Below, piece after piece: positions 1 through 57,128 of a DNA stretch of 64,000 nucleotides (within the stretch, counting starts at the first letter, position 1; every line of letters begins with the position of its first letter). Position numbers and translations under genes: made by a program. The notes under the pieces are model-generated. The model was not told where the DNA came from. It searched no databases and saw only the letters and a list, made by a program, of their open reading frames with translations. This DNA is from Lotus japonicus (Eukaryota; Streptophyta; Magnoliopsida; Fabales; Fabaceae), in the NCBI RefSeq assembly GCF_012489685.1, contig NC_080044.1:32543021-32607020 (forward strand). The letters run 5' to 3'.

Positions 1-115
1 TCGCTCGATGGCTAGCGGGGTCTACCACCCACGAACCGGGGTCGTCCTGGTCTATCATCTCGTATCTAATCCCCCCCGAAGGGTGGACCATTGTGAACCA
101 GTCCGCTATGGACAT
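1..115 (-). CDS. LTR-encoded MSMADWF-type protein, N-terminal 38 codons (partial)
   Basis: Minus-strand frame starting at the ATG at 115-113 and open to the window edge. The translation begins MSIADWFTMVHPSGG and reaches the GSWVVDPA block that characterises this LTR-internal protein in the other copies (22469-22945, 30933-31409, 50865-51318, 57310-57618). No stop or frameshift is visible in the 38 codons present. Function unknown; I do not recognise the family. Confidence 0.55.
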   Translation of the reverse strand, partial: MSIADWFTMVHPSGGIRYEMIDQDDPGSWVVDPASHRA

Positions 116-3100: not shown

Positions 3101-3204
3101 TTCATTTGGTCAACTCTTGTTCAGGTTTCCCTTCACGATACATCAACCCTAATCGTGAATAGGATTTTATTCACTTGACATAACTTAAAAACTTGAGTCT
3201 TACA
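1..3204 (-). mobile_element. Tekay-like Ty3 LTR, copy 1 (runs off window start)
   Basis: Long terminal repeat of a Ty3/gypsy element in minus orientation, related throughout to the intact Tekay-like LTRs at 21975-26151 and 30438-34562. Its 5' end (minus strand TGTAAGACTC) is at 3204. Shared landmarks include a TATA-like stretch near 2486-2493, the run around 660-760 containing the ACGTGTTCTAGCTAA block, and the LTR-internal reading frame at the left edge. The 3' end lies beyond the window, so whether this is a solo LTR or part of a full element cannot be decided. It is noticeably diverged from copy 2. Confidence 0.85.
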
Positions 3205-3296
3205 ACCACCCATGAGCCCGGGGTATCCTGGTCCAACATCTCGAACCTAGTCCCCCCCGAAGGGACGACCATCTCGAACCAATCTGCCATCGACAT
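3205..3296 (-). pseudogene. LTR-encoded MSMADWF-type protein, 5' part only
   Basis: Starts at the minus-strand ATG at 3296-3294 and reads MSMADWFEMVVPSGGTRFEM and on to the GSWVV block, where the neighbouring LTR interrupts it at 3205. No stop codon within the piece. It matches the protein encoded in the other Tekay-like LTRs here. Confidence 0.55.
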
Positions 3297-6200
3297 ATGA
3301 CAAAAAGGGCATACATAGCCCCCCATACACAGGTAGCACGCGCAAGGGTCAACTCAAAGAATTACATAATAGTACATCCAAGAGGCAAAGTTTAAGCATT
3401 AGCTACATAGGCTTAAATATGGATGACAGCATTATAAATTGTATATCCTGTCAACGAAAATAAATAACATTTGCTGGCAATTAACATATCTCAAACAATG
3501 TTAACAAATATCAAATACACTCGACAACTAAATCAGCATGAATGGTGCATGTAATGCAATGCTAAGGAACAAGATGCAATCCGGAGGGATGGGCACCAAC
3601 GAGTCAGCCCTAACACCAGCCATGGTGGGACCATTTCTGCTCGGGCGTCTCTTATACCAAACAAAATGTAGTCAGATCAGCAGTGAACCCGTAGGTCTGC
3701 CATTTCCGTCTGCTACTAAGAATCACCGCAGTGTTCTTATGTGGAAATCCGGGTCTTATGACCATTTTAGAATCCACCGAGGTCCGGCATCCCACCGTGT
3801 ATTAACCTCAAAATGAGTGCATGAATGCAACGTGATTAGCCAAACAACGTCTCCGACCTCACTCGTCACGTCGTCACGTGTTCTAGCTAACTTATTGTCT
3901 CTAAAAAGAATACCCTAAGGTAAATGTCGATTCTGCGACAAAAGACGATTAATTATAAAAAGTATCTCATGATGATTTCTCGAATCATCCGACTCATCTC
4001 CATCCGATGATCAAAAACTGCTCAGCGAGCAAAAAGTACCAATGTACTTGGAAACTACCTGTTTCCCGGCTTATCTTTCAGATAGCCCAACAACAAAACT
4101 GCTCATCGAGCAAAAGAGCATCAACATACTCAGAAACTTATTAATTTTCCCGACTTATCTTTTAGATAGTCAAACAACAAAACTGCTCATTGAGCAAAGA
4201 GTATCAACATACTCGGAAACTCATTGGTTTCCTCAAAACTTGGACTCGGCGACACTTCTCATTTTCCAAAACTAATATTCAAGTCCTAAGCTCTTATTTG
4301 CGATTGTGATCATTATTTAATGATTCAGAGGTTGTTTAATGTCTTATGAATTTTCCTTGTAAAATAGTTTTCATTTAGTTTTATCTCTAGCCTTATGAGT
4401 TTAAAAGATCCCATAATCCCAAGTAATTCCCAGAGAAGGTCTCGATCCATCAAAACAACAACAAGGCCCGAATCTCTGTTCGTCCTGTCAAACTTTCTCA
4501 AAATCTCATGATGAGTGTGGCATAACTGCCCGTTATCCTCACTCTGACGTACAACAGATATATGTGTATTTGCATAATCAAAGTAACACAATCCAACAGT
4601 CATGGCACATATATCAACACATCCTAGATTAACCATTTAGCACATAGCATGTGAATCAATATCAACACATCCTAGATTAACCATTTAGCACATAGCATGT
4701 GAATCAATCTCAAACATAATTCAAGCGATAAATGATTATCAATTGTCAGCCGAAGCCTCAGAAAACATTTTTCCCAGACAAACACAATCAAGTGCATAAA
4801 CAGTAAATCAAGTCGAATTCTTCGACACCTAAATCATTATCTAGTATTCAGTGAGTAGCCCTCACCTGTAGGTTTTCCAGCTTGCTCCTCAAACTTTCCT
4901 TCACAATCTTCCTCCTCGACTCCACAAAGTTCCTCAAACGAACCTTAGAGCAAATTCACAGAAATCAATCACAATGAGTCAGAAACTCAGAAAACAATAA
5001 GTACTAGGGTTACACAAAGCATTATAAACTTCGAAGTACGGTAATCTAACGCGTTAAGACAAGTTTTCGAAAAACAAAATTTTCCTCCCCCCTAGGAGTG
5101 CTCTCGGCCACACATCACAATTGTGTGCGTCGATTTTTCTTCGATCAAACTTGGTTCCTAGGTTATCATTAGTCGTAACTAAGACGAATCTAAGCTCAGA
5201 AAAATTTTCAGATCGAAAACTGTCGCAGGGGTATTTTGGTCAATATTTTCAGCTCAGAATTTCAAAATTGGAATTTCGAAAAACAAATTGGATGGGGACG
5301 TTACTAACGACGTTTATGATGACTAATCCTACTAGCGCTAAGCTAAGTCGAGAGTTTTCAACTTAAAGGATGAGACTTTGGCTCAAAATGGGTTTTTCAA
5401 GCAGAAATGAATTTCGGCGGCATTTCGGCGACATTCGGCAAAATGTAATCTGCTAAACACGCTCTTGGGCATGCAGGGAATAAGTTTAGACGAAGAAATC
5501 GAGTTATTTGGGCAGTTTTACAAAAAACTCAAAACTTTGAGCACAGAAAGACATAGAGAAAGACGACAGAATCGACGATCAGAAGTGAGAGATAGTATCT
5601 ATACCTCGAAGTCTTCGATTAGCAACGAACTGTGCAGCAATCGGGCAAGAAACGGCAAAAATCACTTCCTCCTCCTCTCCTTGGGTTGCTCGCGGGTTTG
5701 GGAAGAAAATGGGGTGAATGTTGTGAAAATTTTCATTTTCTAGCTATTTATAGGTTTTGGAAAATGCGGAAAAATGAAAATTTCGTGATTCCGATTTTTC
5801 CTGCGCATTCCTCCGTGAATTCTAAGATAGGTTCTGGCGACAGAATTCCAGAACTCAAAACAGGTTTCTTGGAATTAAATCAAACGATCCAAAGTCGGTG
5901 TAAATCGATTTTACCTGAAAAGTTACTTTTTGCAGTTGATGTCGGATGAGAAAACTTCGTTCTGAAGAAAGATTCAAAACATCGACAGAAATAGGTGTAC
6001 GCGTGTGGAATATTCATTTGAAGTTCCAAATAGAAAAGGTCTTCATCGTCCGTTGATTTTAGGTTTCTTGAACTATCAGTGATTTAGTTTCGGCAAACTT
6101 CCGAGTATTGGAATTTGACGTTCGTACATTCTAGGGTTTCGTATCGAAACGCTTGTTTATAGATGGATAAGAGAAGTTCTAACATTTCTCTGAAGATTTT

Positions 6201-6457
6201 TGGAATTAGTTTCCATCGTGTCTTTAAGTGTAAATTAGCTATTTACTAGCGTTCTTGCCCTAGGTTTAAGCGAATACTAATCGTGCTGTAACTTTTATCG
6301 ACTTTGATACAATCCTTAGCTTCTTCCTGAACTTTCTCCTTCATAAATTAATTCCATTCAATAAACACTTGTTCGGGTTTTCCTTCACGTTACATCAAAT
6401 TAATCGTGAATAGGAATTTTATTCGATTTATTCTAAACTCGAAACTTTGGGTCTCAC
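3205..6457 (-). mobile_element. Tekay-like Ty3 LTR, copy 2 (interrupted)
   Basis: Second minus-orientation LTR of the same broad family. Its 5' end (minus strand TGTGAGACCC) is at 6457. At 3205 it stops abruptly inside the LTR-internal reading frame, exactly where copy 1 begins. The simplest reading is that copy 1 inserted into copy 2, so the missing part of copy 2 should lie to the left of the window, preceded by a duplicated ACCAC. A TATA-like box (TATAAATAG on the minus strand) lies near 5738-5746. Confidence 0.8.
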
Positions 6458-7151
6458 ACTCTGTGTGCTGATCGTCTGCTTTATATTGCTTATATTTCCG
6501 CTGCACTAAACGGTTTATGAAAAGTTTTACTAAACGTTTTCAAGAACTAATATTCTTTTTAAAAACCTAAGTTTTAAAAAGTGATTTTCAAGTACACAAT
6601 TCAACCCCCCTTCTTGTGTTATTTACTTGCATCTCCGTTTTAAGCATTTGAATCAAGGGCCTTATATTCTTTAAATTGAGTATATAATTCGAAGAGTTGT
6701 CATTGAAAATTCTTTAAACATGTTTTCCCTTTAAAAATAATCTAACCATAGTTTTCGAAAAATTGAAGAATAAGAGAAAGATACAATCTCCTTCTCAAAT
6801 CATGATTAACAAACAAAATAACTGACAGATACATGTTATTCCTTAAATTTACACAGGGAAAAGAATATCTGCATAACTAAACTAAATAAAACTATTTATC
6901 TTACGATATAATAATATTTGGGTATGAATTATAAAAAAATTAAATAGACGTATGATTGTATAACTCTTTAGATCTTCCAGATTTGATTGGTAGGAACTGA
7001 ATGTGTAGCTAGGTTTTCCCATTGTTTTTTTGTGATATGCCGCGATGAAATTTCAGTGGTAAAAAACCTAAATAATACCGGTTTATTAGGTATGGATAAA
7101 ATATTTAGTAATGAAAATGGGCCAGACCTAACCTATCTATTGGGATCTGAT
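6458..7151. other. Intergenic; Ty1/copia LTR remnant at the left end
   Basis: 6458-6625 resembles the 3' end of a Ty1/copia LTR: a string of A/T-rich sequence ending in a TTCAACCCCCCTTCTTGTG motif, related to the stretch at 47370-47510. The rest (about 6630-7151) is A/T-rich with no gene I can support. Confidence 0.4.
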
Positions 7152-21259: not shown

Positions 21260-22468
21260 CAGAGCCGTGTACATAAATTTTGGGCCTAAAGCGAAAATGC
21301 TGAAATGAGTTTTTTTTATGAGAATCTTAAAGAGACTTAATATACTATATACAATATCAATTTTTATATTAACTTCTACTTTTTTTTAGTTGCAAAATCA
21401 TTTATCAAGAGTTTTATAATTAAACAATTTTAACTTAGGTGGTTGTATCACGTTTTCACAGTTGTCAATATTATCTATAGGTAGTTGTTCCATCACATTT
21501 TCACAATTATCAGTATTATCTATAAGTAATTATACTATCATGTTTTCACCCATTTTTTATAGGGTTAAAAACTATAACCGTCCCTGAACTTTGAGCGAGG
21601 TTTGAAAATCGTCCCTCGCCGGAAAATTATCTGAAAACCATCCTCAGACTTTTAAAAACAAATTTGACTCGACCCTCCGGCAGCCTCAGGTCCAGCAAGC
21701 ACTGACTTGGCCGTCCACGTCAATTAATGAGGACCTGACGCGGATTTTTTTTAAATAATTAATATTTCCTAATTATTTTTCCTAATTAACCCTGAATCCC
21801 TAACCTCTTCTCTAAACCTAAATCCCTAATTTCTTTTCTTTCCATTAATTTTTTAATATATTTCCAAATCTGATTTCTTGTTGTTAAAAAAATCAAATTC
21901 TTAATCAAAATAACAAAGCTTCATCATCAGATTAGCGTAAATCACAAAACATAAAGAAATAACCTTTATCATCATGTAACACCCCGATTTCGGTAGCGTC
22001 ACTTTAGTAATAAAAAAGAAAGTAAAGCGGAAAAACGTGAATATTTTTTTTCGATTTGTTTAAATAATAAACTTAACGACTTGTCGAAGTAAAGACTCTT
22101 TAGCGAAAGATAAAACATAACTAATGTACAATATATTTACAGCCCTCGCTATAAGTAGAGAACCACGTCACGAGTAACCTCTAGTGACGGGAAGTAACCG
22201 AAAAGAGTGCCCGTGGGCAGTATGTACAAACCAAGTGAAAGGTCAAGTGTTCGCAATACAGTCCTCCAAAATGAAAGTAGGTCAGTCCAAAACGGCCTGA
22301 ATAAGACCTTCTAGTCCAACCAACTCTCTGTGATTTCCAAAAAGAAAACCACACAAAAAGCTAACGGTCGGGAACCTACCCTGCCCCAAAATACGAACAT
22401 GAAGACAAGAGCTATAACTCTACTCCTACCCTAATTCTGTCAAGAGGAGTACACCCCAGCACACACAA

Positions 22469-22945
22469 CTACATACTGGCGTGGTCATCGTCCGAATCAG
22501 AATCCAGGACGACTAGGTCAATGTCTGCAACCATCCCTCCTCTCGCTGCTGCAACAAGCTCCTGTGCTGGTCTCACGGTTCCAGAACCCGAACCAAGGTC
22601 AGCAGCAACGACAACAGTAGGTGAGCTGGAGTCCGATGGAGTCCCTCCCACAGGCTCCTCCTCCGAGGGGTCCTCATCGTCAGAAGACGACGGTGGTGGT
22701 GGTACTCCTACACCGGGTCCGCAGTGCACACCGGGTGGCAGGTTGAAGCTGACAATATAACACCTCAGAACTCCCTCCGTCAAGTGTACCAGATTGTCGA
22801 CACGATCTTCCATTATTCTCCCCGAGTAAGTCGCTCTGTGGCCAGCGGGGTCGACCACCCATGAGCCGGGGATCTCCTGATCTAGCATCTCAAACCTAGT
22901 CCCCTCCGAAGGGTGGACCATCGTGAACCAATCCGCCATGGACAT
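22469..22945 (-). CDS. LTR-encoded MSMADWF-type protein (3' LTR copy)
   Basis: Protein of 158 residues on the element's sense strand, wholly inside the LTR. Start chosen at the ATG 22945-22943, which is kept in all other copies; the frame is also open upstream to 23023, but that part is not conserved. Layout: N-terminal block MSMADWFTMVHPS; central GSWVVDPAGHRATYSGRIMED; TEGVLR; SFNLPPGVHCGPG; a Pro/Ser/acidic linker (SSSDDEDPSEEEP); and a C-terminal tail LVVLDSDSDDDHASM, which resembles a SUMO-interaction motif with an acidic extension. I do not recognise the family. Comparison with the copy at 50865 shows almost only silent change in the conserved blocks, arguing for a real protein. Role unknown. 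Confidence 0.65.
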   Translation of the reverse strand: MSMADWFTMVHPSEGTRFEMLDQEIPGSWVVDPAGHRATYSGRIMEDRVDNLVHLTEGVLRCYIVSFNLPPGVHCGPGVGVPPPPSSSDDEDPSEEEPVGGTPSDSSSPTVVVAADLGSGSGTVRPAQELVAAARGGMVADIDLVVLDSDSDDDHASM

Positions 22946-25438
22946 CTGACAAAGGGCGTAGTCCGCCAAAACACAAGCAGAAGGCGCGAGGGTCAACTCC
23001 AAAGAATTACATAAGTAATACACCCAGTAGATAAAGTTTAAGGGATAACTACTTAGGCTTAGAAGTATGTGATAGCACTATAAATTGTATATCTTCCAAT
23101 GAATATGAATGAAAATTAATGAAAATTAACATGTGTCAAATAAGATTAACAAGTATCAATCACACTCGGCAACTAAGTCAGTATGCATGGTGCATGAATG
23201 AGATGACGAGGAACAAGATGCAATCCGGAAGGATGGACACCAACGAGTCAGTCCTATCACCGGCCAAAGTGGGACCATTTCTGCTCGGGCATCTCTTACA
23301 CCAAACAAAATGTAGTCAGATCAACAGTATACCCGTAGGCCTGCCATTTCTGTCTGCTACTAAGAATCACTGTAGTGTTCTTATATGGAAATCCGGGTCT
23401 TAGGACCATTTTGGAATCCATCGAGGTCCGACTTCCCGCCGTGTATTAACCCCAGAAATGTGTGAATGAATGCAGCGTGATTAGCCAAACAACGTCTCCG
23501 ACCTCACTCGTCACGTCGTCACGTGTTCTAGCTAACTTATTGTCTCTAAAAAGAATACCCTAAGGTAAATGTCGATTCTACGACAAAAGTCAATTAAATA
23601 TAAAAATTGTATTATCTCATGATGACTTCTCGGGTCATCCGACTCATCTCCATCCGATGAGTAACAATGTACTTGGAAACTTATAGTTCCCTGACAAAAG
23701 TCAATTAAATATAAAAACTGCTCAGCGAGCAAAGAGAAACAATGTACTTGGAAACTTATAGTTCCCTGACTTATCTTTTAGATAGTCGAATAAATAAACT
23801 GCTCATCGAGCAAAGAGTATAAAATACTCAGAAACTTATTAGTTTCTCGGCTTATCTTTTAGATAGCCAAACAACAAAATTGCTCATCGAGCAAAAGAGT
23901 ATTAAAATACTCAGAAACTTATTAGTTTCTCTAAATCTTGGATTCGACGACACATCTCATTTTCCAAAGCTAGTATTCAAACCCTAAGCTTTCATCTGAG
24001 ATTGTTATCATTATTTAAAGGGTTCAAAGGTTGTTTAATGTCTTATGAATTTTCCTTCTGAAATGGTTTCCATTTAGTTTTATCTCTAATCTTATGAGTT
24101 TGAAAGATCCCATAATCCCAAGTAACTCCCAGAGAAGGTCTCGATCCACTGAAATATTGTTAAGGGCCCGAACCTCGGTCCGTCCTGTCAAACTTTCCCA
24201 AAATCTCATGATAAGTTCTGGCATAACTGCCCGTTTATCCTCTCTGACGTGCAACAGATATATGTGTAATTTCAAAATCAAAGTAACACAATCCAACAGT
24301 CATGGCACATATATCAACACATCCCAGATTAACCATTTAGCACATAGCATGTAAATCAATATCAACACATACTAGATTAACCATTTAGCACATAGCATGT
24401 AAATCAATATCAAAAACAAATCCAGCGATAAATGATTATCGTTGTCAGCCGAAGCCTCAGAAAACATTTTCCAGTCAATCACAATCAAGTGCATAAACAG
24501 TAAATAAAGTCGAATTCGTCGACACCTAAAGCATTATCTAGTATTCAGTGAGTAGCCCTCACCTGTAGCTCCTCCAGTGTGATCCTGAAGCGTTCCTTCA
24601 CAATCTCCTCCTTCCGCTCTTTGGAATTCCTCAAACGAACCTTAGAGCGAAAACCAGAGAATTCAATCACAATCAGTCAGAACTCAACAGACAACAATTA
24701 CTAAAGTTACACGAAGCATCATAAACTCTGAAGTACGATAATCTAACGCGATAAGACAAGTTTTCGAAAAAAGAATTTTTCCTCCCCCCTGGAGGTGCTC
24801 TTGGCCACACACACTAATTGTGTGCGCCGATTTTTCTTCGATCAAACTTGGTTCCTAGGTTATCATTAGTCGTAACTAAGACGAATTAAAGCTCGGAAAA
24901 ACTATCGGATCGAAAACTGTCGCAAGGGTATTTTGGTCAGTGTTTTTAGCTCAGAATTTCAAAATTGGAATTTCGAAAAACAAATTTGATGGGGACGTCA
25001 CCAACGACGTTTATGACAACTAATTCTACTGGCGCTAAGCTCAGTCGAGAGTTTTAAGTCTAAAGGACGAAGCTTTGGCCAAAAATGAGTTTTTCGAGCA
25101 GAATTGAAACTCAGCGGCAATTCAGCGAGATTCGGCAAAATGTAATCCGCTAAACATGCTCTTGGGCATGCAGGGAATAAGTTTAGACAGAGAAATCGAG
25201 TTATTTGGACAGTTTTACGAAAAGCTCAAAACTTTGAGCACAGAAAGACATAGAGAAAAGCGATAGAATTGACGATCAGAAGTAAGAAATAGCATCTATA
25301 CCTCGAGGTCTTCGAGTAGCAACGAACGGTGCACCGATCAGGCAAGAAACGGCGAAAATCTCTTCTTCTTCCTCCTCCTCCTCCAAGCTCGCGGGTTTGA
25401 TGGCTATGGTGTTGGAAAATTTTTGATTTTTTTCAAGC

Positions 25439-25446
25439 TATTTATA
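25439..25446 (-). promoter_or_regulatory. TATA box in the 3' LTR
   Basis: TATAAATA on the minus strand, about 705 bp from the LTR 5' end, in the same place as in the other LTR copies of this family. Confidence 0.6.
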
Positions 25447-26189
25447 GTTTATGGAAAATGCGGAAAAATGAAAATTTTGCGATTCCGACTTTTCCTGTGC
25501 CATCCTCTGTGATTTCTAAGATAGGTTCTGGCGACAGAATTCCAAAACTCAGAATAGGTTTCTTGGAATTAAGACAAACGATCCAAAGTCGGTGTAAATC
25601 TATTTTACCCGAAAAACTACTTTTGCAATTGATGTCGGATGAGAAAACTTCTTTCTGAAGAAAGATTAGAAACCTTGAAAGAAATAGGTGTACGCGTGTG
25701 GAATCTTTGTTTGAAGCACCGAATAGAAAAAGTCTTCATCGACCATTTATTTTAGGTTTCTTGAGCTATCAGGGGTTAAGTTTCGGCAAACCTCCGAGAA
25801 CTAGAATCAGACGTTCGTACATTTCAGGGTTTCGTATCGAAATGCTTGTCATGGAAAAATTAAGAGAAGTTCTAACATTTCTCTGAAGATTTTTGGAATT
25901 AGTTTCATCGTGTCTTTAAGTGCAAATTAGTCGTTTACTAACGTTCTTGTCCTAGGTATAAGCGAATACTACTTGCGCTATAACTTATATCGACTTTAAT
26001 ACTATTCTTAGCCTTTTCCTGAACTTTCTCCTTCATAAATTTATTCCATTTGATAAACACTTGTTCAGGTTTTCCTTCACGTTACATCGAAACTAATCGT
26101 GAATAGGAATTTTTTTCGGTTTATTCTAAGCTTAAAAACTTGGGTCTCACATTACTACCCTCCAAAAAGAAAGTTTCGACCTCGAAAAC

Positions 26190-29156
26190 TTAAGGTTCAG
26201 CAAAAAGTTCCAGATACTGTTCCTTGATCTTTTCCTTCAGCTCCCATGTCGCATCACCAGTGTCCTTGTTCCAAATGACTTTCACCAACACAATCTCTTT
26301 ACCCCTCAACTGTTTTATCCTTGTATCAACAATGCTAATTGGCGGCGTCTCGAATGACAGATCATCCTTCAACTCGATGTCATCAAGTTCGATAACATGC
26401 GTCGGATCCGCAATATACTTCCTCAGTTGTGATACATGAAATACATCGTGAATGTTTGATAGAAACGGTGGTAGTGCAATCTGATAAGCAACTGGTCCTA
26501 CTCGACGGGTAATTTGATAAGGTCCAATGAACTTTGGCGTAAGCTTCCTTGACTTAATCGCTCGTCCAACTCCCGTATTCTGTGTAACTCGCAGAAATAC
26601 ATGGTCTCCTTCTTCAAATTCTAGAGTTCTGCGCCTTTGATCGGCATAACTTTTTTGTCTACTTTGAGAAGTCTTCATTTTCTCTCTGATCTGTTTGATC
26701 TTCTCAGTTGTCTGTTGCAGAAGTTCTGGTCCAACTAACAAATTCTCTCCATCTTGATACCAACACAAAGGTGTTCTACACTTGCGGCCATACAAAGCTT
26801 CATACGGTGCCATACCTATGCTCGTATGAAAACTGTTGTTGTAAGTGAACTCAATCAATGGCAGTAGATCATCCCAACTGCCCTTGTTGTCTAATACGCA
26901 AGCTCGTAGTAAGTCTTCCAATGATTGAATAGTTCTCTCAGTCTGTCCATCAGTCTGTGGATGATAAGCAGAACTTAATCTCAGCCTTGTTCCCAATGCC
27001 TCTTGAAGAGCTCCCCAAAAATGTGAAGTAAACTTTAGGTCTCGATCGGAAACAATACTAGTCGGTACCCCATGAAGGCGTACAATCTCAGCTATGTAAA
27101 TCTCCGACAGTTTCTCCACGTTGTAGGTAGTTCTCACAGGTATAAAGTGAGCCGACTTGGTCAATCGATCCACTATTACCCAAATCGAATCATATCCCTT
27201 CTGAGTTCTCGGCAAAGCCACGACAAAATCCATCGATATACTATCCCATTTCCATTCTGGCACATCACTACTTTGTAGCATACCTGAAGGTTTCTGATGT
27301 TCCACCTTAGCTTTCTGACATGTTAAACACGCAACTACATACTCAACCACTTGTCTTTTCATTCTTGGCCACCAAAAATTCATCTTCAAGTCTTGGTACA
27401 TCTTTTTCATTCCAGGATGAATGCTCAACTTGCTCTTGTGACCTTCGTCCATAATCAACCTCCTCAAGTCAGGGTTGTTAGGTATGCAAACTCTATCCTT
27501 GCACCGCAGGATATTGTCACTTCCTACCTTGAATTCTGGGTCCTTACCCTGAATTACCAAATTTCTCTTCCCGAGTAGAAATTCATCTTGTAACTGTTGG
27601 TCTCGGATTTCTTCCATCAATCCATTGGCGATTCTGATCATACCGAACTTCAGTTCACCCTCGGACGATCTCACATCTAAGCACAAATCTTGAAATTGTT
27701 CTAGCAGTTGCAGCTCTTTAACCATCATCGATGAGATATGCATCTTCCTGCTCAAGGCATCAACAACAACATTAGCCTTTCCAGGATGATACTGCAGAGT
27801 AAATTCATAATCCTTGATAAATTCCATACATCGTCGTTGTCTCATGTTCAGCTCCTTCTGCTCAAACAAGTACTTCAGACTCTTATGGTCACTGAATATG
27901 GTAAAGATGCATCCATATAAGTAATGTCTCCAGATTTTCAGTGAAAATACTATAGCAGCTAGCTCTAAGTCATGAGTCGGATAATTCTTCTCGTGAACCT
28001 TCAGTTGTCGTGAAGCATAAGCCACTACTTTCCAATGTTGCATCAACACACATCCCAAACCTTGATGCGAAGCATCACAGTAAACCTCATACGGTTCCTC
28101 TGGTTGTGGTAGAACGAGTACAGGTGACGTCGTCAAACGTTCCTTCATCGTCTGGAAGCTAGTTTCGCACGCTTCGGTCCATGCAAAAGGTTGATCCTTC
28201 CTCGTAAGTTGAGTCAAAGGTCCAACAATCTTGGCGAAGTTCTCGATGAAACGACGATAGTATCCCGCCAAACCGACGAAACTTATGATTTCAGTCACAG
28301 TCCTTGGCTGTTCCCATTTCAACACGGTCTCTACCTTTGCTGGGTCCACAGCTATACCCTCTTTAGAGATCACATGGCCTAAGAATTTGACTTCTTCAAT
28401 CCAAAATTCGCACTTGGAAGGGTTGGCGTACAACTCCTTTTCCCTTAGCACTTGTAAAACCTGACGCAGGTGCTCCTCATGATCCTTAGCATCCTTTGAG
28501 TAAATTAGAATGTCGTCAATAAACACCACGACGAATCGATCTAAGAAAGTATGAAAAGTCATGTTCATGTAGTCCATGAAAATAGCAGGTGCGTTCGTCA
28601 CCCCAAATGACATCACTAAATATTCATAGTGTCCGTAGCGAGTTCGGAATGCCGTCTTCTGGATATCCTCAGTCTTTACTCTGATCTGATGGTAACCCGA
28701 CTTCAGGTCTATTTTTGAGAATACCGCAGCTCCTCGAATTTGATCCATCAAATCATCAATTCTAGGTAACAGATACCTATTCTTGACGGTTGCTTTGTTA
28801 AGTTGTCGGTAGTCGACACACAATCTAGATCTTCCATCCTTCTTCTTTACCAATAAAACTGGCGCTCCCCAAGGCGAAACGCTTGGCCGGATAAATCCTT
28901 TCGACAGAAGATCCTCTATCTGAGACTTCAATTCCACTAACTCTGCAAGTGCCATACGATATGGTGCAATCGAAATCGGCCTTGTTCCCGGTACGATGTC
29001 AATAGCAAACTCGACGTCGCGTACAGGCGGCAATCCAGGTACATCGTCAGGAAAAATATCAATGAAGTCTCTCACGACTGGAATATTGTTCACTTCCGGA
29101 TTCCCTTTACTCTCTAAGTTTAGCAATACAGAGTACTCTTGAGATCCTTCGTTCAA
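26190..29156 (-). pseudogene. Ty3 Pol: reverse transcriptase, RNase H, integrase, chromodomain-like end
   Basis: Open for 988 codons. [17 protein letters not shown] and the catalytic VVFIDD box at residues about 210-215. RNase [15 protein letters not shown] (D361). Integrase: a His/Cys zinc region ending CLTCQKAK, the SMDFV aspartate, the SIVSDRD aspartate and the [13 protein letters not shown] block. The last 60 residues ([31 protein letters not shown]) resemble the chromodomain of Tekay/Del integrases, which guides insertion to heterochromatin. There is no ATG at the front: the frame begins just where the gag-protease frame stops, and the change of frame near 29150-29200 looks like an indel. 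Otherwise no internal stop. Confidence 0.9.
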
Positions 29157-30226
29157 AGAGACACTAATGTGGTTGGCAGATAGATACTCGAAAGATCCGA
29201 GTCAGGAAATACCACTCTCTTTCGATTGCAGTCCAAAAGACAATGATAATGAGATAACCAATCCATTCCTCGGATAACATCTAAGTTCTTGAGAGTTATG
29301 CATACTAGGTTAGCATGAAAGATTCTATCTCTATATGTCACCGGACAGTACATGCATGCAGCATTAGCTAGTAGGGTTTTAGCAGGTGTGGTAACAATAA
29401 GATCAAAGCTCAAAGCAGTAACAGGAAGTTTCAATCTGGTCACACATTCCCTCGAGATAAACGAATGCGTTGCACCGGAATCGAAAAGTACAGTTAGAAG
29501 ATTACCGTCAATCTCGCAATTTCCTCTGATCAGACCGTCAACTCCTTCAGCCTCTTCACCATCCATGGTGTAAACTCTTGCTTTCGCAGCAGGGCGCTTT
29601 CCTCGAGCAGTTCCAGATGATTCACATTTGGGCGCCTTGCATTCCTTGCCGAGATGCCCCAGTTGGTTACAATTGAACCATCGCTTCCCTTTGTCCTCGC
29701 ACTTATCAGCATAGTGACCAATTTCCCCACATCTGTAACATGACACTTGTTTCCTTGCCCCTCTAGCTATGGCAGGAAACTTGCCCTTCATCTTGTTGTC
29801 AAACGGTCCCGCCTGGAACGTTCTATAGTTCACGGCCAAATGTCCACGTCGTTTGCACTTGCAGCATTTTGGTCCAGTCACTGAGCACTGAAAGGCGTAG
29901 TTTCCAAGTTTCCCACAACGGTAGCATGACACAGCCTCCTGGCAAATAGTTGCGGTCGTTGACTTGCGTGATCCTGGGGTAGGGTCTCTTCCCTCGGGAT
30001 GCTGGTATGGCTTCCACTGCCGGTACTCCTGAGAACCTGATCTCACTGGTCCTCCAGTTCCAGCTCGGTCCAATCCACTATGCTGGTACTTGGACGCCTC
30101 GATTAGCGGTTGAGGTTGCTCACGTGCAGCCTCCTCAGCGCGTCTGTAAGCGTCCTCAGTAGCCTAATTCATCATTGCCTCAATCATTGTAGCTATTGCC
30201 TTCGCCATTCGGTCAGGGCTCACCAT
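29153..30226 (-). pseudogene. Ty3 Gag remnant with zinc knuckles and protease
   Basis: The frame starts at the ATG 30226-30224, meets a TAG at 30166-30164, then runs open to 29153. Visible: three CCHC-type zinc knuckles (CYRCGKLGNYAFQC, CYRCGEIGHYADKC, CFNCNQLGHLGKEC as read in frame, the last with W or C variants) and the aspartic protease signature LFDSGATHSFIS. The capsid (retrotransposon gag) core expected between the N-terminus and the knuckles is missing: only about 100 codons separate the ATG from the first knuckle. The element therefore cannot make its own particles. Confidence 0.85.
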
Positions 30227-30422
30227 CCTATGCTTAGTCAAACAAACAGTTAGTACTCATCATAAGATAGCATCTAGCATAACTAGACAATATGATTAAG
30301 CAATAACTTCAATCAATTCTAAGCGAAAAATCGCTTGCAGACAATCAATTTTCACTCTTTGCAGAGTCACACAACCTAGCACAGAAGACCTATTCCCCAA
30401 AGACTCCCGAAAGACTCGACAA

Positions 30423-30434
30423 GCTCTGATACCA
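30423..30434 (-). promoter_or_regulatory. Primer-binding site (initiator Met tRNA)
   Basis: TGGTATCAGAGC on the minus strand, three bases after the end of the 5' LTR. Confidence 0.9.
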
Positions 30435-30932
30435 CAATGTAACACCCCGATTTCGGTAGCGTCACTTTAGTAACCAAAAAGAAAGTAAAGCGAAAAAACG
30501 TGAATATTTTTTTTTCGATTTGTTTAAATAATAAACTTAACGACTTGTCGAAATAAAGACTCTTTAGCAAAAGATAAAACATAACTAATGTACAATATAT
30601 TTACAGCCCCCGCTGTAAGTAGAGAACCACGTCATGAGTAACCTCCAGTGATGGGAAGTAACCGAAAGTAGTGCCCGTGGGCAGTATGTACAAACCAAGT
30701 GAAAGGTCAAGTGTTCGCAATACAGTCCTCCAAAATGTAAGTAGGTCAGTCCAAAACGGCCTGAATAAGACCTCCTAGTCCAACCAACTCTCTGTGATTT
30801 CCATAAAGAAAACCACACAAAAAGCTAACGGTCGGGAACCTACCATGCCCCAAAATACGAACATGAAGACCAGAGCTATAACTCTACTCCTACCCTATTT
30901 CTGTCAAGAGGAGTACACCCCAGCACTCACAA

Positions 30933-31409
30933 CTACATACTGGCGTGGTCATCGTCCGAATCAGAATCTAGGATGACTAGGTCAATGTCTGCAACCATCC
31001 CTCCTCTCGCTGCTGCAACAAGCTCCTGTGCTGGTCTCATGGTTCCAGAACCCGAACCAAGGTCAGCAGCAACGACAACAGTAGGTGAGCTGGAGTCCGA
31101 TGGAGTCCCTCCCACAGGCTCCTCCTCCGAGGGGTCCTCATCGTTAGAAGACGACGGTGGTGGTGGTACTCCTACACCGGGTCCGCAGTGCACGCCGGGT
31201 GGCAGGTTGAAGCTGACAGTATAACACCTCAGAACTCCCTCCGTCAAGTGTACCAGACTGTCGACACGATCTTCCATTATTCTCCCCGAGTAAGTCGCTC
31301 TGTGGCCAGCGGGGTCGACCACCCATGAGCCGGGGATCTCCTGATCTAGCATCTCAAACCTAGTCCCCCCCGAAGGGTGGACCATCGTGAACCAATCCGC
31401 CATGGACAT
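30933..31409 (-). CDS. LTR-encoded MSMADWF-type protein (5' LTR copy)
   Basis: Same 158-residue protein as in the 3' LTR, with only a few residue changes (for example SGG for SEG near residue 14, Ser for Asn after RVD, Thr for Ile before VSFNL). The frame is intact in both LTRs. It begins about 2.4 kb downstream of the TATA box at 33849 and ends about 495 bp before the LTR end, so in the element's RNA it would lie in the long 5' leader. Confidence 0.65.
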   Translation of the reverse strand: MSMADWFTMVHPSGGTRFEMLDQEIPGSWVVDPAGHRATYSGRIMEDRVDSLVHLTEGVLRCYTVSFNLPPGVHCGPGVGVPPPPSSSNDEDPSEEEPVGGTPSDSSSPTVVVAADLGSGSGTMRPAQELVAAARGGMVADIDLVILDSDSDDDHASM

Positions 31410-33848
31410 CTGACAAAGGGCGTAGTCCGCCAAAACACAAGCAGAAGGCGCGAGGGTCAACTCCAAAGAATTACATAAGTAATACACCCAGTAGATAAAG
31501 TTTAAGGGATAACTACTTAGGCTTAGAAGTATGTGATAGCATTATAAATTGTATATCTTCCAATGAATATGAATGACAATTAATGACAATTAACATGTGT
31601 CAAATAAGATTAACAAGTATCAATTACACTCGGCAACTAAGTCAGTATGCATGGTGCATGAATGAGATGACGAGGAACAAGATGCAATCCGGAAGGATGG
31701 ACACCAACGCGTCAGTCCTATCACCGGCCAAAGTGGGACCATTTCTGCTCGGGCATCTCTTACACCAAACAAAATGTTGTCAGATCAACAGTATACCCGT
31801 AGGCCTGCCATTTCTGTCTGCTACTAAGAATCACCGTAGTGTTCCTATATGGAAATCCGGGTCTTAGGACAATTTTGGAATCCATCGAGGTCCGACTTCC
31901 CGCCATGTATTAACCCCAGAAATGTGTGAATGAATGCAGCGTGATTAGACAAACAACATCTTCGACCTCACTCGTCACGTCGTCACGTGTTCTAGCTAAC
32001 TTATTGTGTCTAAAAAGAATACCCTAAGGTAATTGTCGATTTTGCGACAAAAGACAATTAAATATAAAATTGTATTATCTCATGATGACTTCTCGGGTCA
32101 TCCGACTCATCTCCATCTGATGGTTAAAAACTGCTCAGCGAGCAAAGAGTAACAATGTACTTGGAAACTTATAGTTTCCTTACTTATCTTTTAGATAGTC
32201 GAATAAATAAACTGCTCATCGAGCAAAGAGTATAAAATACTCAGAAACTTATTAGTTTCCCGGCTTATCTTTTAGATAGCCAAACAACAAAATTTCTCAT
32301 CGAGCAAAAGAGTATTAAAATACTCAGAAACTTATTAGTTTCTCTAAATCTTGGATTCGACGACACATCTCATTTTCCAAAGCTAGTATTCAAACCCTAA
32401 GCTTTCATCTGAGATTGTTATCATTATTTAAAGGGTTCAGAGGTTGTTTAATATCTTATGAATTTTCCTTGTGAAATGGTTTCCATTTAGTTTTATCTCT
32501 AATCTTATGAGTTTGAAAGATCCCATAATCCCATGTAATTCCCAGAGAATGTCTCGATCCACTAAAATATTGTTAAGGGCCCGAACCTCGGTCCGTCCCG
32601 TCAAACTTTCCCAAAATCTCATGATAAGTTCTGGCATAACTGCCCGTTTATTCTCTCTGACGTGCAACAGATATATGTGTAATTTCAAAATCAAAGTAAC
32701 ACAATCCAACAGTCATGACACATATATCAACAAATCCTAGATTAACCATTTAGCACATAGCATGTAAATCAATATCAACACATCCTAGATTAACCATTTA
32801 GCACATAGCATGTAAATCAATATCAAAAACAAATCCATCGATAAATGATTATCATTGTCAGCCGAAACCTCAGAAAACATTTTCCAGTCAATCACAATCA
32901 AGTGCATAAACAGTAAATCAAGTCGAATTCGTCGACACCTAAAGCATTATCTAGTATTCAGTGAGTAGCCCTCACCTGTAGCTCCTCCAGTGTAATCCTG
33001 AAGCGTTCCTTCACAATCTCCTCCTTCCACTCCTTGGAATTCCTCAAACGAACCTTAGAGCGAAAACCACAGAATTCAATCACAATCAGCCAGAACTCAG
33101 CAGACAACAATTACTAAAGTTACACGAAGCATCATAAACTCCGAAGTACGATAATCTAACGCGATAAGACAAGTTTTCGAAAAAAGAATTTTTCCTCCCC
33201 CCTGGAGGTGCTCTCGGCCACACACACTAATTGTGTGCGCCGATTTTTCTTCGATCAAACTTGGTTCCTAGGTTATCATTAGTCGTAACTAAGGCGAATT
33301 AAAGCTCGGAAAATTTATCGGATCGAAAACTGTCGCAGGGGTATTTTGGTTAGTGTTTTTAGCTCGAAATTTCAAAATTGGAATTTCGAAAAACAAATTT
33401 GATGGGGACGTCACCAACGACGTTTAAGACAACTAATCCTACTGGCGCTAAGCTCAGTCGAGAGTTATAAGTCTAAAGGACGAAGCTTTGGCAAAAAATG
33501 GGTTTTTCGAGCAGAATTGAAACTCGGCGGCAATTCGGCGAGATTCGGCAAAATGTAATCCGCTAAACATGCTCTTGGGCATGCAGGGAATAAGTTTAGA
33601 CAGAGAAATCGAGTTATTTGGACAGTTTTACGAAAAGCTCAAAACTTTGAGCACAGAAAGACATAGAGAAAAGCGACAGAATTGAAGATCAGAAGTAAGA
33701 AATAACATCTATACCTCGAGGTCTTCGAGTAGCAACGAACGGTGCAGCGATCAGGCAAGAAACGGCGAAAATCTCTTCTTCCTCCTCCTCCTCCAAGCTC
33801 GCGGGTTTGATGGCTATGGTGTTGGAAAATTTTTGATTTTTTTCAAGC

Positions 33849-33856
33849 TATTTATA
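33849..33856 (-). promoter_or_regulatory. TATA box in the 5' LTR
   Basis: TATAAATA on the minus strand within AACTATAAATAGC; the same box occurs in the solo LTRs at 48487-48494 and 54879-54886. Confidence 0.65.
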
Positions 33857-34562
33857 GTTTATGGAAAATGCGGAAAAATGAAAATTTTGCGATTCCGAGT
33901 TTTCCTGTGCCATCCTCTGTGATTTCTAAGATAAGTTCTGGCGACAGAATTCCAAAACTCAGAATAAGTTTCTTGGAATTAAGACAAACGATCCAAAGTC
34001 GGTGTAAATCTATTTTACCCGAAAAACTACTTTTGCAATTGATATCGGATGAGAAAACTTCTTTCTGAAGAAAGATTAGAAACCTCGAAAGAAATAGGTG
34101 TACGCTTGTGGAATCTTCTTTTGAAGCTCCGAATAGAAAAAGTCTTCATCGACCGTTTATTTTAGGTTTCTTAAGCTAACAGGGGTTTAGTTTCGGCAAA
34201 CCTCCGAGAACTAGAATCAGACGTTCGTACATTTCAGGGTTTCGTATCGAAATGCTTGTCATGGAAAGATTAAGAGAAGTTCTAACATTTCTCTGAAAAT
34301 TTTTGGAATTAGTTTCCATCGTGTCTTTAAGTGCAAATTAGTCGTTTACTAACGTTCTTGTCCTAGGTATAAGCGAATACTACTTGCGCTATAACTTATA
34401 TCGACTTTAATACTATTCTTAGCCTTTTCCTGAACTTTCTCCTTCATAAATTTATTCCATTTGATAAACACTTGTTCAGGTTTTCCTTCACGTTACATCG
34501 AAACTAATCGTGAATAGAAATTTTATTCGGTTTATTCTAAGTTTAAAAACTTGGGTCTCACA

Positions 34563-47615: not shown

Positions 47616-48486
47616 TGTGAGACCCGAAGTTTTAAGTTTGGAATAAACCGAATAGAATTTCTTTTCGCGATTAAATTGATGTAACGTGAAGGAAAATCTG
47701 AACAAGTGTTATTCGGATGGAATAAATTCGTGAAGGAGAAAGTTCAGGAAAAAGCTAAGGATTTTATTGAAGTCGATAAAAGTTATAACACGATTAGTTT
47801 GATTTAAACCTAGGTCAAGAACGCTAGAAAATAGTTTATTTACGTTTTTAGACACGACGGAAATTAATTCCAAAAATCTTCAGAGAAATGTTAGAACCTC
47901 TCTTGATCGTCTTTAAACAATCGCTTCGATGCGAAACCCTGGAATGTAAGAACGCCCAATTCCAATACTCGGAAGATTGCCGAAACCGAAACCCTGATAG
48001 TTCAGAAACCCTAAAATCAACGGACGATGAAGACTTTTTCTATTCGGAGCTTCAAATAAAGATTTCATCCGCGTACGCCCTCTCTAATCGACGTTCCGAA
48101 TCTTTCTTCAGAAGGAAGTTTTCGCATCCGAGGTCAAAAGCATAAAGTGAATTTTTAAGCCGGTAAACATTAAAAACAAGCCTCGAAAACCAAAAATCAT
48201 ACTGATATTTCTTTGGAGAATTAGAAGATTCCACCCGCGTTCGCCTTCTTCTCTTGATATTTCTAATCTTTCTTCAGAACAAAGTTTTCTCATCCGACAT
48301 CAACTGCAAAAAAGTAGTTTTCGGGTAAGACCGATTTACACCGACTTTTGGTCGTTTGATTAAATTCCAAGAAACCTGTTTTGAGTTCTGAAATTATGTC
48401 GCCACAACCTATCTTAGAATTCTCCGAGGATTACACAGGAAAAATCGGAATCGCGAAATTTTCATTTTTCGAAATTTTCCAAAAAC

Positions 48487-48494
48487 TATAAATA
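48487..48494 (+). promoter_or_regulatory. TATA box of solo LTR 1
   Basis: TATAAATA within AACTATAAATAGCGG, 871 bp from the LTR start and about 2.4 kb before the internal reading frame. Confidence 0.65.
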
Positions 48495-50864
48495 GCGGGA
48501 AAATGAAAAAAATGGAAAAACTCACCCATTTCCCCCATTGAACCCGCGAGCTTCCAAGAGAGGAGGAGGATTTTGATTTTCGCCGTTTCTTGCCCGTTTG
48601 CTTCACCGATCGTTGCAAATCGAAGACCTTGAGGTAGGTAAACCATATCTCTCTTCCGATCGTCGTTTCTGTCGACTCTCCTACGTCTTTCTGAGCTCAA
48701 AGTTTTGAGGTTTTTGTAAAACTGTCCAAATAAGTTGATTTCAGTGCCTAAACATCTTCCCTGCATGCTCCTAAGCGTGTTCTGCGGATTATATTTTGTC
48801 AAATGTCGACGAAATGCCGCCGGGATCAATTTCTGTGGAAAAAACCCATTTTTGGGTAAAGCTCCGTTCTTTACGTTAAATACTTGCGACTTAGCTTCGT
48901 GTTAGTAGGATTAGTTGTCATAAATGTCGTTGTTGACGTACCCATCCAATTTGTTTTTCGAAAATCCAGTTTTGGAATTCTAAGCTGAAAATAATGACCA
49001 AAATACCCCTGCGACAGTTTTTCATCCGAAAATTTTTCCGAGCTTAGAACCGTCTTAGTTACGGCTTATGATAACCTAGGAACCAAGTTTGATCGAAGAA
49101 AAATCGATCCCCCTAATTAGGGAAAGTGGCCGAGAGCTCCATTAAGGGGGGAGGGAATTTCGGTTTTTCGAAAACTTGTCTTAACGCGTTAGATTGTCGT
49201 ACGTAGGAGTTGGTAATGTGTCGTGTAACCCTAGTGCGTATTGTTTTGCTGAGTTCCTGACTCATTGTGCTTGATTTCTGTGATTTGTCCTAAGGATCAT
49301 TTGAAGAATTTTGTGAAGTTCCAGAGGAAGATTGTGAAGGAAACTTGGAAAAGCAAGCTGGAAAACCAACCGGTGAGGGTTTCTCACTGAATACTAGCTA
49401 ATGTTTTAGGTGTCGACTAATTCGACTTGATTTATTGTTTATGCACTTGTTTGTGGTTGGTTGGGAAAAATGTTTTCTGAGGCTTCGGCTGACAATTGAT
49501 AATCTTTTATTGCTTGATTGCTGTTGAAGTTGATTCACATGCTAAATGCTACCTGGTTAACCTAGGATGTGTGATATTTGCCCTATATGCTATGTGCTAA
49601 ATGGTTATTCCTCAATATGTGTTATACGTGCCATGATTGTTGGATTGTACTGTTTGGAATATGCAAGTCCACATATATCTGTTATTCGGCAGAGTGAGGA
49701 TAACGGGCTGTTATGCCAACTTTTATGGTGAGATTTGAGAAAGTTTGATGGGACGGACCGAGGTTCGGGCCCTTGAAATTGTTTTGATGGATCGAGACCT
49801 TCTCTGGGGATTGTTTGGGATTATGGGATCTTTTGGAAACTTATAGGACTTGGGATAAAACTAAACGAAAATTATTTTACGAGGAAAATTCATAAGATAT
49901 TAAATAATCTCTAAACCTTTGATTAATGATTACAAATTCCATTAAGAGCTTAAGACATGAGAGATTAGTTTTTGGAAAACGAGAAGTGTCGCCGAGTCCA
50001 AATTTTGAGGAAACTAATGAGTTTCCGAGTATGACAATACTCTTTCGCTCGATGAGCTGATTTGTTATTTGACTATCTAAAAGATAAGTCCGGGAACTAT
50101 AAGTTTCCAAGTACAATGGTACTTTTCGCTCGCTGAGCAGATTTTGACCATCGGGTGGAGATGAGTCGGATGATTCGAGAAATCATCATGAGTTACTTTT
50201 TATAATTAATTGTCTTTTGTCGCAGAATCGACATTTACCTTAGGGTAAGCCTTTTTAGGGACAATTAGTTAGCTAGAACACGTGACGACGTGACGAGTGA
50301 GGTCGGAGACGTTGTTTGGCTAACCACTTGCATTCATGCACTCATTGAGGTTAATACACGGTGGGATGCCGGACCTCGTTGGATTCCAAAAATGGTCATA
50401 AGACCCGGATTTCCATGTAAGAACACTGCGGTGATTCTTGGTAGCAGACGGAAATGGCAGGCCTGCGGGTTTACTGCTGATCTGACTACACTTTGTTTGG
50501 TATAAGAGACACGCGAGCGGAAATGGTCCCACCGTGGCTGGTGTTAGGGCTTACTCGTTAGTGCCCATCCCTCCGGAATGCATCTTGTTCCTTTGCATAT
50601 GCATTGCATGCACCATTCATGCTGATTATAGTTGTTGTTTGTGTTTGTTACCTGTTAATGTTTTGATATATGTTTTATGCCAGTAAATGTTACATATTCC
50701 TATTTGACAGGATATACGATTTATAATGTTGTTGTACATAATTAAGCCTATGTGGCTACTACTTATATTTTGCCTATTGAATGTACTATTATGTAATTCT
50801 TTGAGTTGACCCTTGCGCGTGCTACCTGTGTATGGGGGGCTATGTATGCCCTTTTTGTCAGATG

Positions 50865-51318
50865 ATGTCTATGTCCGATTGGTTCGAGATGGTCGTCCCC
50901 ACGGGGGGGGGGGACCAGATTTGAGTTGCTTGACACAGAGACCCCGGGCTCGTGGGTAGTAGACCCCGCAGGTCACCGAGCCATTTACACGGGGCGTATC
51001 ATGGAGGACCACGTGGACCGATTTGGGAACCTGACGCAAGGAGTGCTGAGACGCCACACCGTTAGCTTCAACCTACCACCGGGCGTGCATTGTGGCCCTG
51101 GAGTTGTGGTGCCACCACCATCGTCGTCGGAAGACGAGGAGGACCCATCAGAGGAGTTGCCGGTAGGAGGTGCTTCGTCTGAGTCCAGCTCACCCATCGT
51201 TGCGGCTGCTGCCTTGGGATCGGGTACAGTACCCGTGGTACCTGCTGTGAGGACCGATGCCGCTGTTGACGTGATCGTCCTGGATTCCGATTCAGACGAC
51301 GATCATGGGGATGCGTAG
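50865..51318 (+). pseudogene. LTR-encoded MSMADWF-type protein (solo LTR 1), frameshifted at a G-run
   Basis: Starts MSMSDWFEMVVPT at 50865. An 11-base G-run at 50903-50913 shifts the frame (other copies have 7). From 50926 the frame is open again to the stop at 51316-51318 and contains GSWVVDPAGHRA, GRIMEDHVD, GVLRRHTVSFNLPPGVHCGPG, the acidic Ser/Glu linker and the tail VIVLDSDSDDDHGDA. Against the copy at 22469, the three strictly conserved blocks differ only by silent changes. The single frameshift in a mononucleotide run may be a late event, or an assembly error. Confidence 0.65.
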
Positions 51319-51799
51319 TTGGGCGTGGTGTGTAGTACTCCTAGAGTAGGGATTAGAGTTGGAGTAGCGTCGTGGCTCTGATCACCAGTTTTCTCATTTT
51401 GGGGCAGGGTAGGTCCCCGACCTATAGCTTTTTGTGTGGATCTCTTGACGGGAGTCACAGGGAGTTGGTCGGATTAGGAGGTATTTTGTGGCGACCTACT
51501 TTCTGGTTGGAGGACTGTATATCAGGATACTGACTCTATATTTTGGTGTTGTACATATTTGCCGATAGGCACTACTTTCCCGTCACTGGAGGCTACTCGT
51601 GACGTGGTTTACTGTTTAGTTGTGGGGAGTGTATATATTGTACATTAGTTCTGCTTACTTTTAGTCGATGTTTTTTAAGAATTGCCGAGTCCTTATTTTA
51701 AAAGAAAAAAATAAATACATCGAAAAAAAATATTCACGATTTTTACACTTTAATTTCTTTTGGTTACTAAAGTGACGCCACCGAAACCGGGGTGTTACA

Positions 51800-54878: not shown

Positions 54879-54886
54879 TATAAATA
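54879..54886 (+). promoter_or_regulatory. TATA box of solo LTR 2
   Basis: TATAAATA inside the palindrome CGCCTATAAATAGGCG, about 2.4 kb before the internal reading frame. Confidence 0.65.
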
Positions 54887-56712: not shown

Positions 56713-56797
56713 ATGGGTTTGTTGAGATTGGGTTGTGAGCTAAACACTTTCGTGGTAAGGGCGATTCGTTGTTTGGCTAACCATATTGCATCAATCG

Positions 56798-57024: not shown

Positions 57025-57128
57025 AATCCGGATTCATATTGTCCATTTCACGCATACATTGATTCTGACTTGAATTGTGTGCTGTTTGATTTATTGAAGC
57101 AATGTTAGAGCCATAACATGCTAGGATT

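Follow-up and report, generated by a model that had tools for sequence, protein, structure and literature searches.

Long terminal repeats (LTRs) are usually regarded as DNA that carries control signals only, and solo LTRs as dead remains. Here, we describe an open reading frame (ORF) beginning MSMADWF that lies wholly inside the 4-kb LTRs of Tekay/Del-like retrotransposons in a 64,000-nt stretch of the Lotus japonicus genome (contig NC_080044.1, positions 32,543,021 to 32,607,020, forward strand; hereafter, the window). A first-pass annotation of the window had proposed that this frame encodes a protein under purifying selection, and our comparisons within the window and across the genome bear this out: the frame evolves as a protein. 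We further report what that annotation did not contain, namely a probable spliced layout of the LTR, a second family of the gene, the near absence of lysine from the product and a conserved C-terminal motif.

Element A and the LTR frame

The frame is found in both LTRs of one element, which we call A, and it stops about 495 nt short of the LTR end. The two LTRs are 96% identical, and the 5′ LTR is followed by a primer binding site (PBS), TTGTGGTATCAGAGC, which we take to be of the initiator tRNA-Met type. The gag gene is damaged by a stop after 20 codons from its start, with the zinc-knuckle and protease part still there, while pol follows the order reverse transcriptase, RNase H and integrase, as in a Ty3 chromovirus. 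The end of the integrase resembles a chromodomain in its pattern; a Pfam scan of pol gave no chromodomain match. The assignment to the Tekay/Del clade is a label carried over from the first-pass annotation. No clear 5-bp target duplication was seen adjoining the LTRs of element A, and inverted repeats lie on either side of it (21561-21832 and 35257-35524).

The first-pass annotation had listed six copies of the frame (Table 1), and it is indeed present at all six positions, but they do not amount to six intact and independent genes. A1 and A2 come from the paired LTRs of a single element and so cannot be counted as independent. An indel within a stretch of 11 G leaves copy D non-intact, its frame open only to either side. 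Copy B is cut after 30 codons where LTR C (1-3204) begins, and copy C is open for 38 codons and then ended by the window edge. Copy E, from the second family, matches over about 80 codons, its second half being replaced by a different short end. This end, GTGRVGLGWRHVLCRALIRFAFGTG, is common to E and protein P0015 and nearly the same in P0016; thus, a form of the second family without the usual tail seems to have spread.

Table 1. Positions of the elements, LTRs, frame copies and predicted transcript features in the window.
Feature	Position	Strand	Basis
5′ LTR of element A, 4.1 kb, TG...CA, then tRNA-Met-type primer binding site	30438..34562	-	
3′ LTR of element A	21975..26151	-	
Primer binding site of element A	30423..30437	-	
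gag start codon of element A; acceptor-like TAG ends 1 nt before, ACTAAC upstream	30224..30226	-	
gag C-terminus (zinc knuckles) and protease of element A	29153..30073	-	
pol of element A: open over 988 codons, with reverse transcriptase, RNase H, integrase and a chromodomain-like end	26190..29156	-	
LTR B, interrupted within the ORF by LTR C	3205..6458	-	
LTR C, continues beyond the window edge	1..3204	-	
LTR D, solo LTR, target duplication CATAT at both ends	47616..51799	+	sequence
LTR E (second family, diverged); polypurine-like GGGGGAG just before	54187..58007	+	
LTR ORF copy A2, open over 158 aa; would form exon 3	30933..31409	-	
LTR ORF copy A1, 158 aa, open	22469..22945	-	
LTR ORF copy B, first 30 codons	3205..3296	-	
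LTR ORF copy C, first 38 codons	1..115	-	
LTR ORF copy D, frameshifted in G run near 50903-50913	50865..51318	+	
LTR ORF copy E, N-terminal domain only, then divergent short end	57310..57618	+	
TATA box (TATAAATAG) of the A2 LTR; transcription start expected about 30 nt downstream	33848..33856	-	
Exon 2 of A2, 78 nt, AAG^ ... CAG^GTGAGG; non-coding leader	32976..33053	-	
Exon 2 of A1, 78 nt	24563..24640	-	
Exon 2 of D, 78 nt	49295..49372	+	
Exon 2 of E, 78 nt	55689..55766	+	

Selection on the frame in the window and the genome

Comparison of A2 with D over 144 codons gave a rate of replacement change (dN) of 0.187 and a rate of silent change (dS) of 1.53, a ratio of 0.12, with the 124 differences distributed 35/18/71 over codon positions 1/2/3. 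The ratio was 0.16 between A2 and C (38 codons), 0.16 between A2 and B (30 codons) and 0.25 between A2 and E (80 codons). When the differences of each pair were placed at random in 2000 trials, ratios as low as those observed arose in no trial for A2-D and D-E, in one for A2-E and in five each for A2-C and A2-B, and flanking LTR DNA, of which three stretches were read as pseudo-codons in three frames, had ratios of 0.47-1.56. A count from the first-pass annotation, by which 36 codons hold 21 differences that are all silent, was reproduced in our comparison of A1 with D: 8 fall in PGSWVVDPAGHRA, 8 in SFNLPPGVHCGPG and 5 in VLDSDSDDDH, the peptides being identical. Only 8 differences separate A1 from A2, at a ratio close to 1 such as is to be expected once an element has inserted, and 1055 of the 2000 random trials reach the observed value.

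A genome search with the A1 protein, in which 150 of 8478 first-look candidates were scored and conserved copies are favoured, found that all 150 match and, counted from the match table, that 124 are without an internal stop. From these, we took 48 (8 search loci, including the window's two, and 40 spread down the list) and added D. In this conservation-chosen set, the ratio of the proportions of differing replacement and silent sites (pN/pS) was 0.43 when pairs were near-identical, dropped to 0.19-0.22 at intermediate distance and stood at 0.27-0.28 among the pairs farthest apart. A second, blind sample was drawn with 300 bases of intron outside the frame as the query; 40 candidates each were scored out of 2805, 2021 and 3016, and 58 were fetched, namely 38 of 40 for the A type (the other two being the window's own) and 10 of 40 for each of the D and C types. 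The frame is open from the initial methionine to the C-terminal motif in 14 A-type, 3 D-type and 6 C-type copies (23 of 58), carries stops, shifts or lost starts in 19, 5 and 4, and is not recognisable in 5, 2 and 0; by a looser rule, requiring 140 codons open in one frame, 17, 5 and 7 copies qualify.

For the blind pN/pS values, we kept copies with at least 75 aligned codons (A 33, D 8, C 8; 49 of the 58, with 9 dropped). Within families, the ratio was 0.36 for A, 0.19 for D and 0.29 for C, and between families 0.27 for A-D (264 pairs), 0.25 for A-C (264) and 0.33 for D-C (64). Pairs of copies are not independent, so these pair counts overstate the evidence, and it is the pattern that matters. 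Over many copies, then, the between-family ratio is 0.25-0.33 and not near 1, and codon position 3 holds 50-58% of the between-family differences rather than an equal share, so that two tests set by the first-pass annotation came out in favour of selection. Its third, whether the frame is broken in most young elements, received a mixed answer: in the blind sample, open copies have the proportions given above, but 141 of 150 scored copies of the second family are free of stops. The constraint differs by region, the between-family pN/pS being 0.19-0.24 in the N-terminal part (residues 1-79) and 0.38-0.50 in the middle; in the C-terminal motif, it is 0.13, 0.03 and 0.23 and the lowest of the regions in two of the three comparisons.

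One could suppose that there is no protein and that recent common descent or a constraint on DNA or RNA mimics selection. Some of the LTR outside the frame is also conserved, as would then be expected (upstream differences of 0.06-0.08 in the A set, a region that was partly the search query). Nevertheless, between families, silent sites differ at 0.57-0.66 and replacement sites at 0.15-0.21 in the blind sample, and the flanks are without such a pattern, which leaves this explanation with next to no probability.

The second family, represented in the window by LTR E, encodes a protein of 222 aa (P0012). Its search, in which 150 of 7415 candidates were scored, favours conserved copies and is blind to frameshifts, and the stop-free count was taken from the match table. 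Among the 150, there are 24 same-strand pairs 8.60-8.78 kb apart, as the LTR pairs of full elements would be. In one such pair (L113 and L114, 8.66 kb apart), the 666-nt open frames are identical, and the spacing indicates that these are the LTRs of one element; downstream of L114 come the LTR end, a PBS and a gag frame that is open over the 208 codons fetched. The gene of this element is thus still intact after recent transposition. Seven fetched copies gave a within-set pN/pS of 0.28, and against the other families, the N-terminal domain gave 0.37-0.41.

It might also be asked whether this is a domesticated host gene of Lotus rather than a gene of the element, given that some copies are annotated as Lotus genes and that a solo LTR keeps the layout. 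We consider this barely credible, as the first-look candidates number 7415-8478 and all of the 150 scored per search matched, the paired LTRs of element A drift in a near-neutral way (8 differences), and the gene lies in LTRs beside a PBS and an open gag. A hotspot of frame breakage is the G run at codons 13-15, where the frame shifts in 7 of the 33 A-type copies that have one (L052, L058, L059, L063, L072, L079 and L081), as well as in D of the window. Selection works on the lineage of elements and not visibly on each inserted copy; it would act during replication of the element and end, or nearly end, at insertion. That the LTR gene is real and selected we regard as nearly certain.

A probable spliced layout within the LTR

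LTRs A, B, D and E carry the TATAAATAG box, followed about 140 nt on by a GAG^GT donor, and then an exon 2 of exactly 78 nt bounded by AG and by GTGAGG or GTTAGG. An acceptor touches the start of the ORF, as CAG^ATG, in the window LTRs, D having one extra ATG and B having CATATG; LTR C has CTATATAG in place of the box. Across the genome, the 78-nt exon 2 is recognisable in 34 of 40 copies with upstream LTR sequence, counting only 78-nt copies with more than 60% identity; of these 34, the GT donor is retained in 33. Two NCBI gene models for Lotus, P0005 and P0006, join the exon 2 peptide straight to MSMADW at the predicted junction, and exon 2 of one genome copy (L017) reads ELKRKVVKESLRNTLEELQ, the same as in P0006. 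ATG triplets occur at 1.1 and 1.7 per kb in exons 1 and 2 and at 11.8 and 25.7 per kb in introns 1 and 2, and the leader, counted from 32 nt past the TATA box, is free of ATG in 24 of the 31 copies left after length filtering. These signals make it probable that the LTR leader is spliced to the ORF.

From them, we infer that the gene is expressed and spliced in vivo as follows. Transcription would begin downstream of the TATA box, and removal of two introns, both entirely within the LTR, would join an ATG-poor leader to the start codon of a protein of 158-222 aa. The message probably ends near the 3′ end of the LTR, and if so, any LTR, even a solo one, could make the protein. Unspliced RNA would serve as the genome for reverse transcription, as it should because the introns survive in the LTRs. 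As for gag, its start codon follows an acceptor-like site by 1 nt in element A and by 3 nt at L114, and ACTAAC or ACTAAT lies some 20 nt before the site, as judged by eye; this suggests two alternative acceptors, one for the LTR ORF and one for gag, served by a single leader. Probably gag would be reached by the same leader spliced past the LTR gene; either read-through or the second acceptor could yield it.

The position of the frame between the LTR promoter and gag would also suit a regulatory leader peptide, that is, an upstream ORF in genomic RNA that is selected only for the control of gag. However, many ATGs precede the frame in the unspliced leader (40 in intron 2 of A2 alone), and its 158-222 codons, domain-wise constraint and conserved C-terminal motif exceed what such a peptide would need, so that we consider this idea very improbable.

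The intron of LTR E (56360-57040) also contains two tandem arrays, of GTGTTGTATTGACCGACACT-like and GGTGAATAACGGGAATGGTTCA-like units; visual inspection showed none in LTRs A, B and D of the window.

Elsewhere in the window, the minus strand at 17259-18185 and 18942-20201 holds a Plant_tran transposase (PF04827, E 9e-112), which we take to be of the PIF/Harbinger type, and, beside it, a frame with a weak Myb-like match (E 0.006); the two may belong together as a DNA transposon pair. A frame for a RING-finger protein (zf-RING_2, E 1e-12), possibly a host gene, lies at 37753-38604 on the plus strand. Direct repeats of 1.2 kb (43403-44625 and 46074-47318), 92.5% identical, are possibly the LTRs of another element.

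The protein and its possible role

The LTR ORF proteins are acidic (isoelectric points of 4.1-4.7 in nine proteins). Structure models place a short helix and four strands in residues 3-68, the remainder being disordered or of low confidence. A Pfam search of 11 members returned no match at E up to 10 and no RING or other ligase domain. In both families, the C-terminal end passes from a hydrophobic stretch to acidic residues and serines (LVVLDSDSD and MITVDSDSD, with LIVLDSDTD as a further variant), a type that we take to be that of phospho-dependent SUMO-interacting motifs. A loose version of the pattern matches 8 of 9 proteins.

Lysine is almost absent. Against expectations computed from codon-position composition, A copies hold 0.29 lysines each rather than 3.5, with none in 23 of 31 copies, D copies 0.25 rather than 2.9 and C copies 1.1 rather than 4.1; the seven copies of the second family have 0, 0, 0, 0, 2, 1 and 0 where 4.8-5.7 would be expected. 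For other proteins, the figures are 72 against 57 expected in pol and 9 against 12 in gag. P0022 (LOC113787768), a protein of chickpea, is similar to the N-terminal domain (16 of 27 residues identical, profile probability 95%) and ends in VDLTSEESD and an acidic tail; we treat it as no more than a probable relative.

We propose that these LTRs carry a complete accessory gene whose product is most likely a nuclear SUMO-linked regulator, and as a whole, this best explanation seems to us to have about an even chance of being right. What the data show directly is the position and frame of the gene, its selection, the conserved splice signals and the composition of its product; its expression and splicing in vivo, the alternative joining to gag, SUMO binding and the role are proposed on that basis. 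The protein would start with a small, folded domain, continue through an acidic and disordered linker and close with a SUMO-interacting-like C-terminal motif, with almost no lysine, and it may act as a nuclear regulatory factor on SUMO-bearing host proteins, aiding transcription of the element or its escape from silencing. Taken by itself, this last role, in which a nuclear SUMO-binding regulator favours transcription or counters silencing, is the best fit because the protein is acidic, lysine-poor and motif-bearing, and we hold it tentatively, a little short of even confidence.

Other functions for a gene that is real and selected deserve consideration. The product might serve integration steering, packaging or the export of unspliced RNA, like Rev or Rem. 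Doubly spliced RNA is the usual source of such regulators in complex retroviruses, as described for MMTV (mouse mammary tumour virus) Rem in the accessible part of PMC3026287, and elements with a spliced leader need unspliced RNA as their genome. However, the strong acidity of the nine proteins and the lack, by eye, of any basic RNA-binding stretch speak against it, and we consider such a role possible but rather unlikely. Alternatively, the protein could be an adaptor like a SUMO-targeted ubiquitin ligase, whose C-terminal motif holds SUMO-marked silencing factors and which recruits a ubiquitin ligase while itself escaping ubiquitin for want of lysine. Lysine depletion beyond composition together with the motif would fit, and a lysine desert occurs together with SUMO-interacting motifs in Slx5, a SUMO-targeted ligase of yeast, according to the accessible parts of PMC10169902 and PMC6545562. 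Nevertheless, Pfam finds no ligase domain, C-family copies have about one lysine each and the chickpea protein has seven, and a single lysine-free A copy arises in about 2% of composition shuffles, the copies being related; this version is improbable.

Several observations weigh against a spliced, selected gene with a SUMO-linked product. In the blind sample, 35 of the 58 copies are broken or without a recognisable frame (29 by the looser rule). Among the 31 copies of the A set that cover 120 codons or more, silent sites of the ORF change more (0.183) than the rest of the same LTRs (0.145 in the 3′ untranslated region and 0.06-0.08 in the upstream intron), with replacement sites at 0.064, and pS reaches 0.28 in D and 0.21 in C even though the intron query piece is 96-99% identical in those copies. 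Families recombining with one another, top hits having been chosen by intron identity, decay of CpG sites or selection that favours diversity could each account for such fast silent sites. Regarding splicing, LTR C is without an AG at the exon 2 acceptor, a T replaces the G of the ORF acceptor in LTR B, and exon 2 was not recognised in 6 of the 40 genome copies. Exon 2 is itself non-coding (ratio 0.75; a stop in 6 of 38 copies), the ORF acceptor reaches only the 78th percentile of intron dinucleotide conservation, the shortage of leader ATGs in A2 alone is modest (0 against 1.8 expected), and the gag acceptor is based on two elements only (A and L114). Finally, searches of Pfam and the PDB gave no fold or family match for the protein; the SUMO motif is short, its tight pattern is found in 2 of 4 proteins and 0.7-2.5% of shuffled tails match too; its pN/pS for C versus D is the highest of the three values at 0.23; and the possible chickpea relative has seven lysines.

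Coding sequence in an LTR has precedents in animal viruses. HIV nef and the foamy virus bel genes have coding sequence in the 3′ LTR, by overlap only. In MMTV, an LTR-encoded protein is made from a spliced message with its acceptor just ahead of the frame, according to the accessible part of PMC3026287. As far as that text goes, MMTV sag is alike in that the gene lies within an LTR, which is unusually long for it, and uses the LTR promoter; it differs in belonging to an animal retrovirus, in encoding a superantigen and in having its donor in the leader or env. The Lotus gene belongs to a plant chromovirus and has both introns inside the LTR, and no sequence relation is known or claimed. Its product is most likely a regulatory accessory protein, encoded in the LTR as Sag is.

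Among plant elements, Tekay elements of sunflower (Tekay 13-2) and grasses have conserved additional ORFs (aORFs) 5′ of GAG-POL whose proteins are predicted to be nuclear, as stated in the accessible sections of PMC11728184. Those of sunflower Tekay 13-2, maize Tekay, Sb7 and Retrosat-2 share the clade label given by the first-pass annotation and resemble the Lotus frame in encoding a conserved, largely disordered extra protein before gag, but they are described as outside the LTR, span about 400 aa and are proline-rich (same sections), and the portion available of a review (PMC7264820) places aORFs in the internal region. The Lotus frame lies in the LTR and not in the internal position, between the 5′ LTR and gag, by which Tekay aORFs are defined. 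No named Tekay aORF protein was among the protein-search matches, which included no direct comparison with aORF sequences. VANC, an anti-silencing protein of Vandal DNA transposons, is like the Lotus product in its possible role, the protection of an element from silencing, and unlike it in coming from a DNA transposon. Such Vandal proteins are mentioned in the accessible part of PMC11728184. Lysine deserts are described, in the portions available of PMC10169902, for disordered proteins of the ubiquitin system, including Slx5, and lysine-free proteins for some viruses. The likeness to the Lotus protein lies in disordered lysine-poor regions, which in Slx5 occur with SUMO-interacting motifs (PMC10169902 and PMC6545562, same limits), and the difference is that Slx5 is a ubiquitin ligase subunit whereas the Lotus protein has no ligase domain.

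We found no plant LTR-internal gene of this sort in the openly accessible literature, and a systematic survey (PMC6317226) does not mention additional ORFs in its accessible text for the terms searched. Del LTRs of maize, sorghum and Setaria have a conserved CpG-rich 3′ part, according to the part available of PMC4029996, and this part might hide a similar frame.

In its fullest form, the proposal would make every LTR a self-contained spliced gene whose near-lysine-free product binds SUMO-bearing silencing factors, with one ATG-poor leader leading to either the LTR gene or gag, as in complex retroviruses, and with many solo and full LTRs supplying the factor in trans; we regard this complete version as speculative and unlikely. 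Should the LTRs of abundant plant chromoviruses indeed hold a spliced gene under selection, solo LTRs may still act in trans, the length of these LTRs would be newly explained, and age estimates from LTR divergence would have to take a coding portion into account. The LTR gene also provides, in the model plant Lotus, a concrete candidate for the means by which a thriving plant element handles host silencing.

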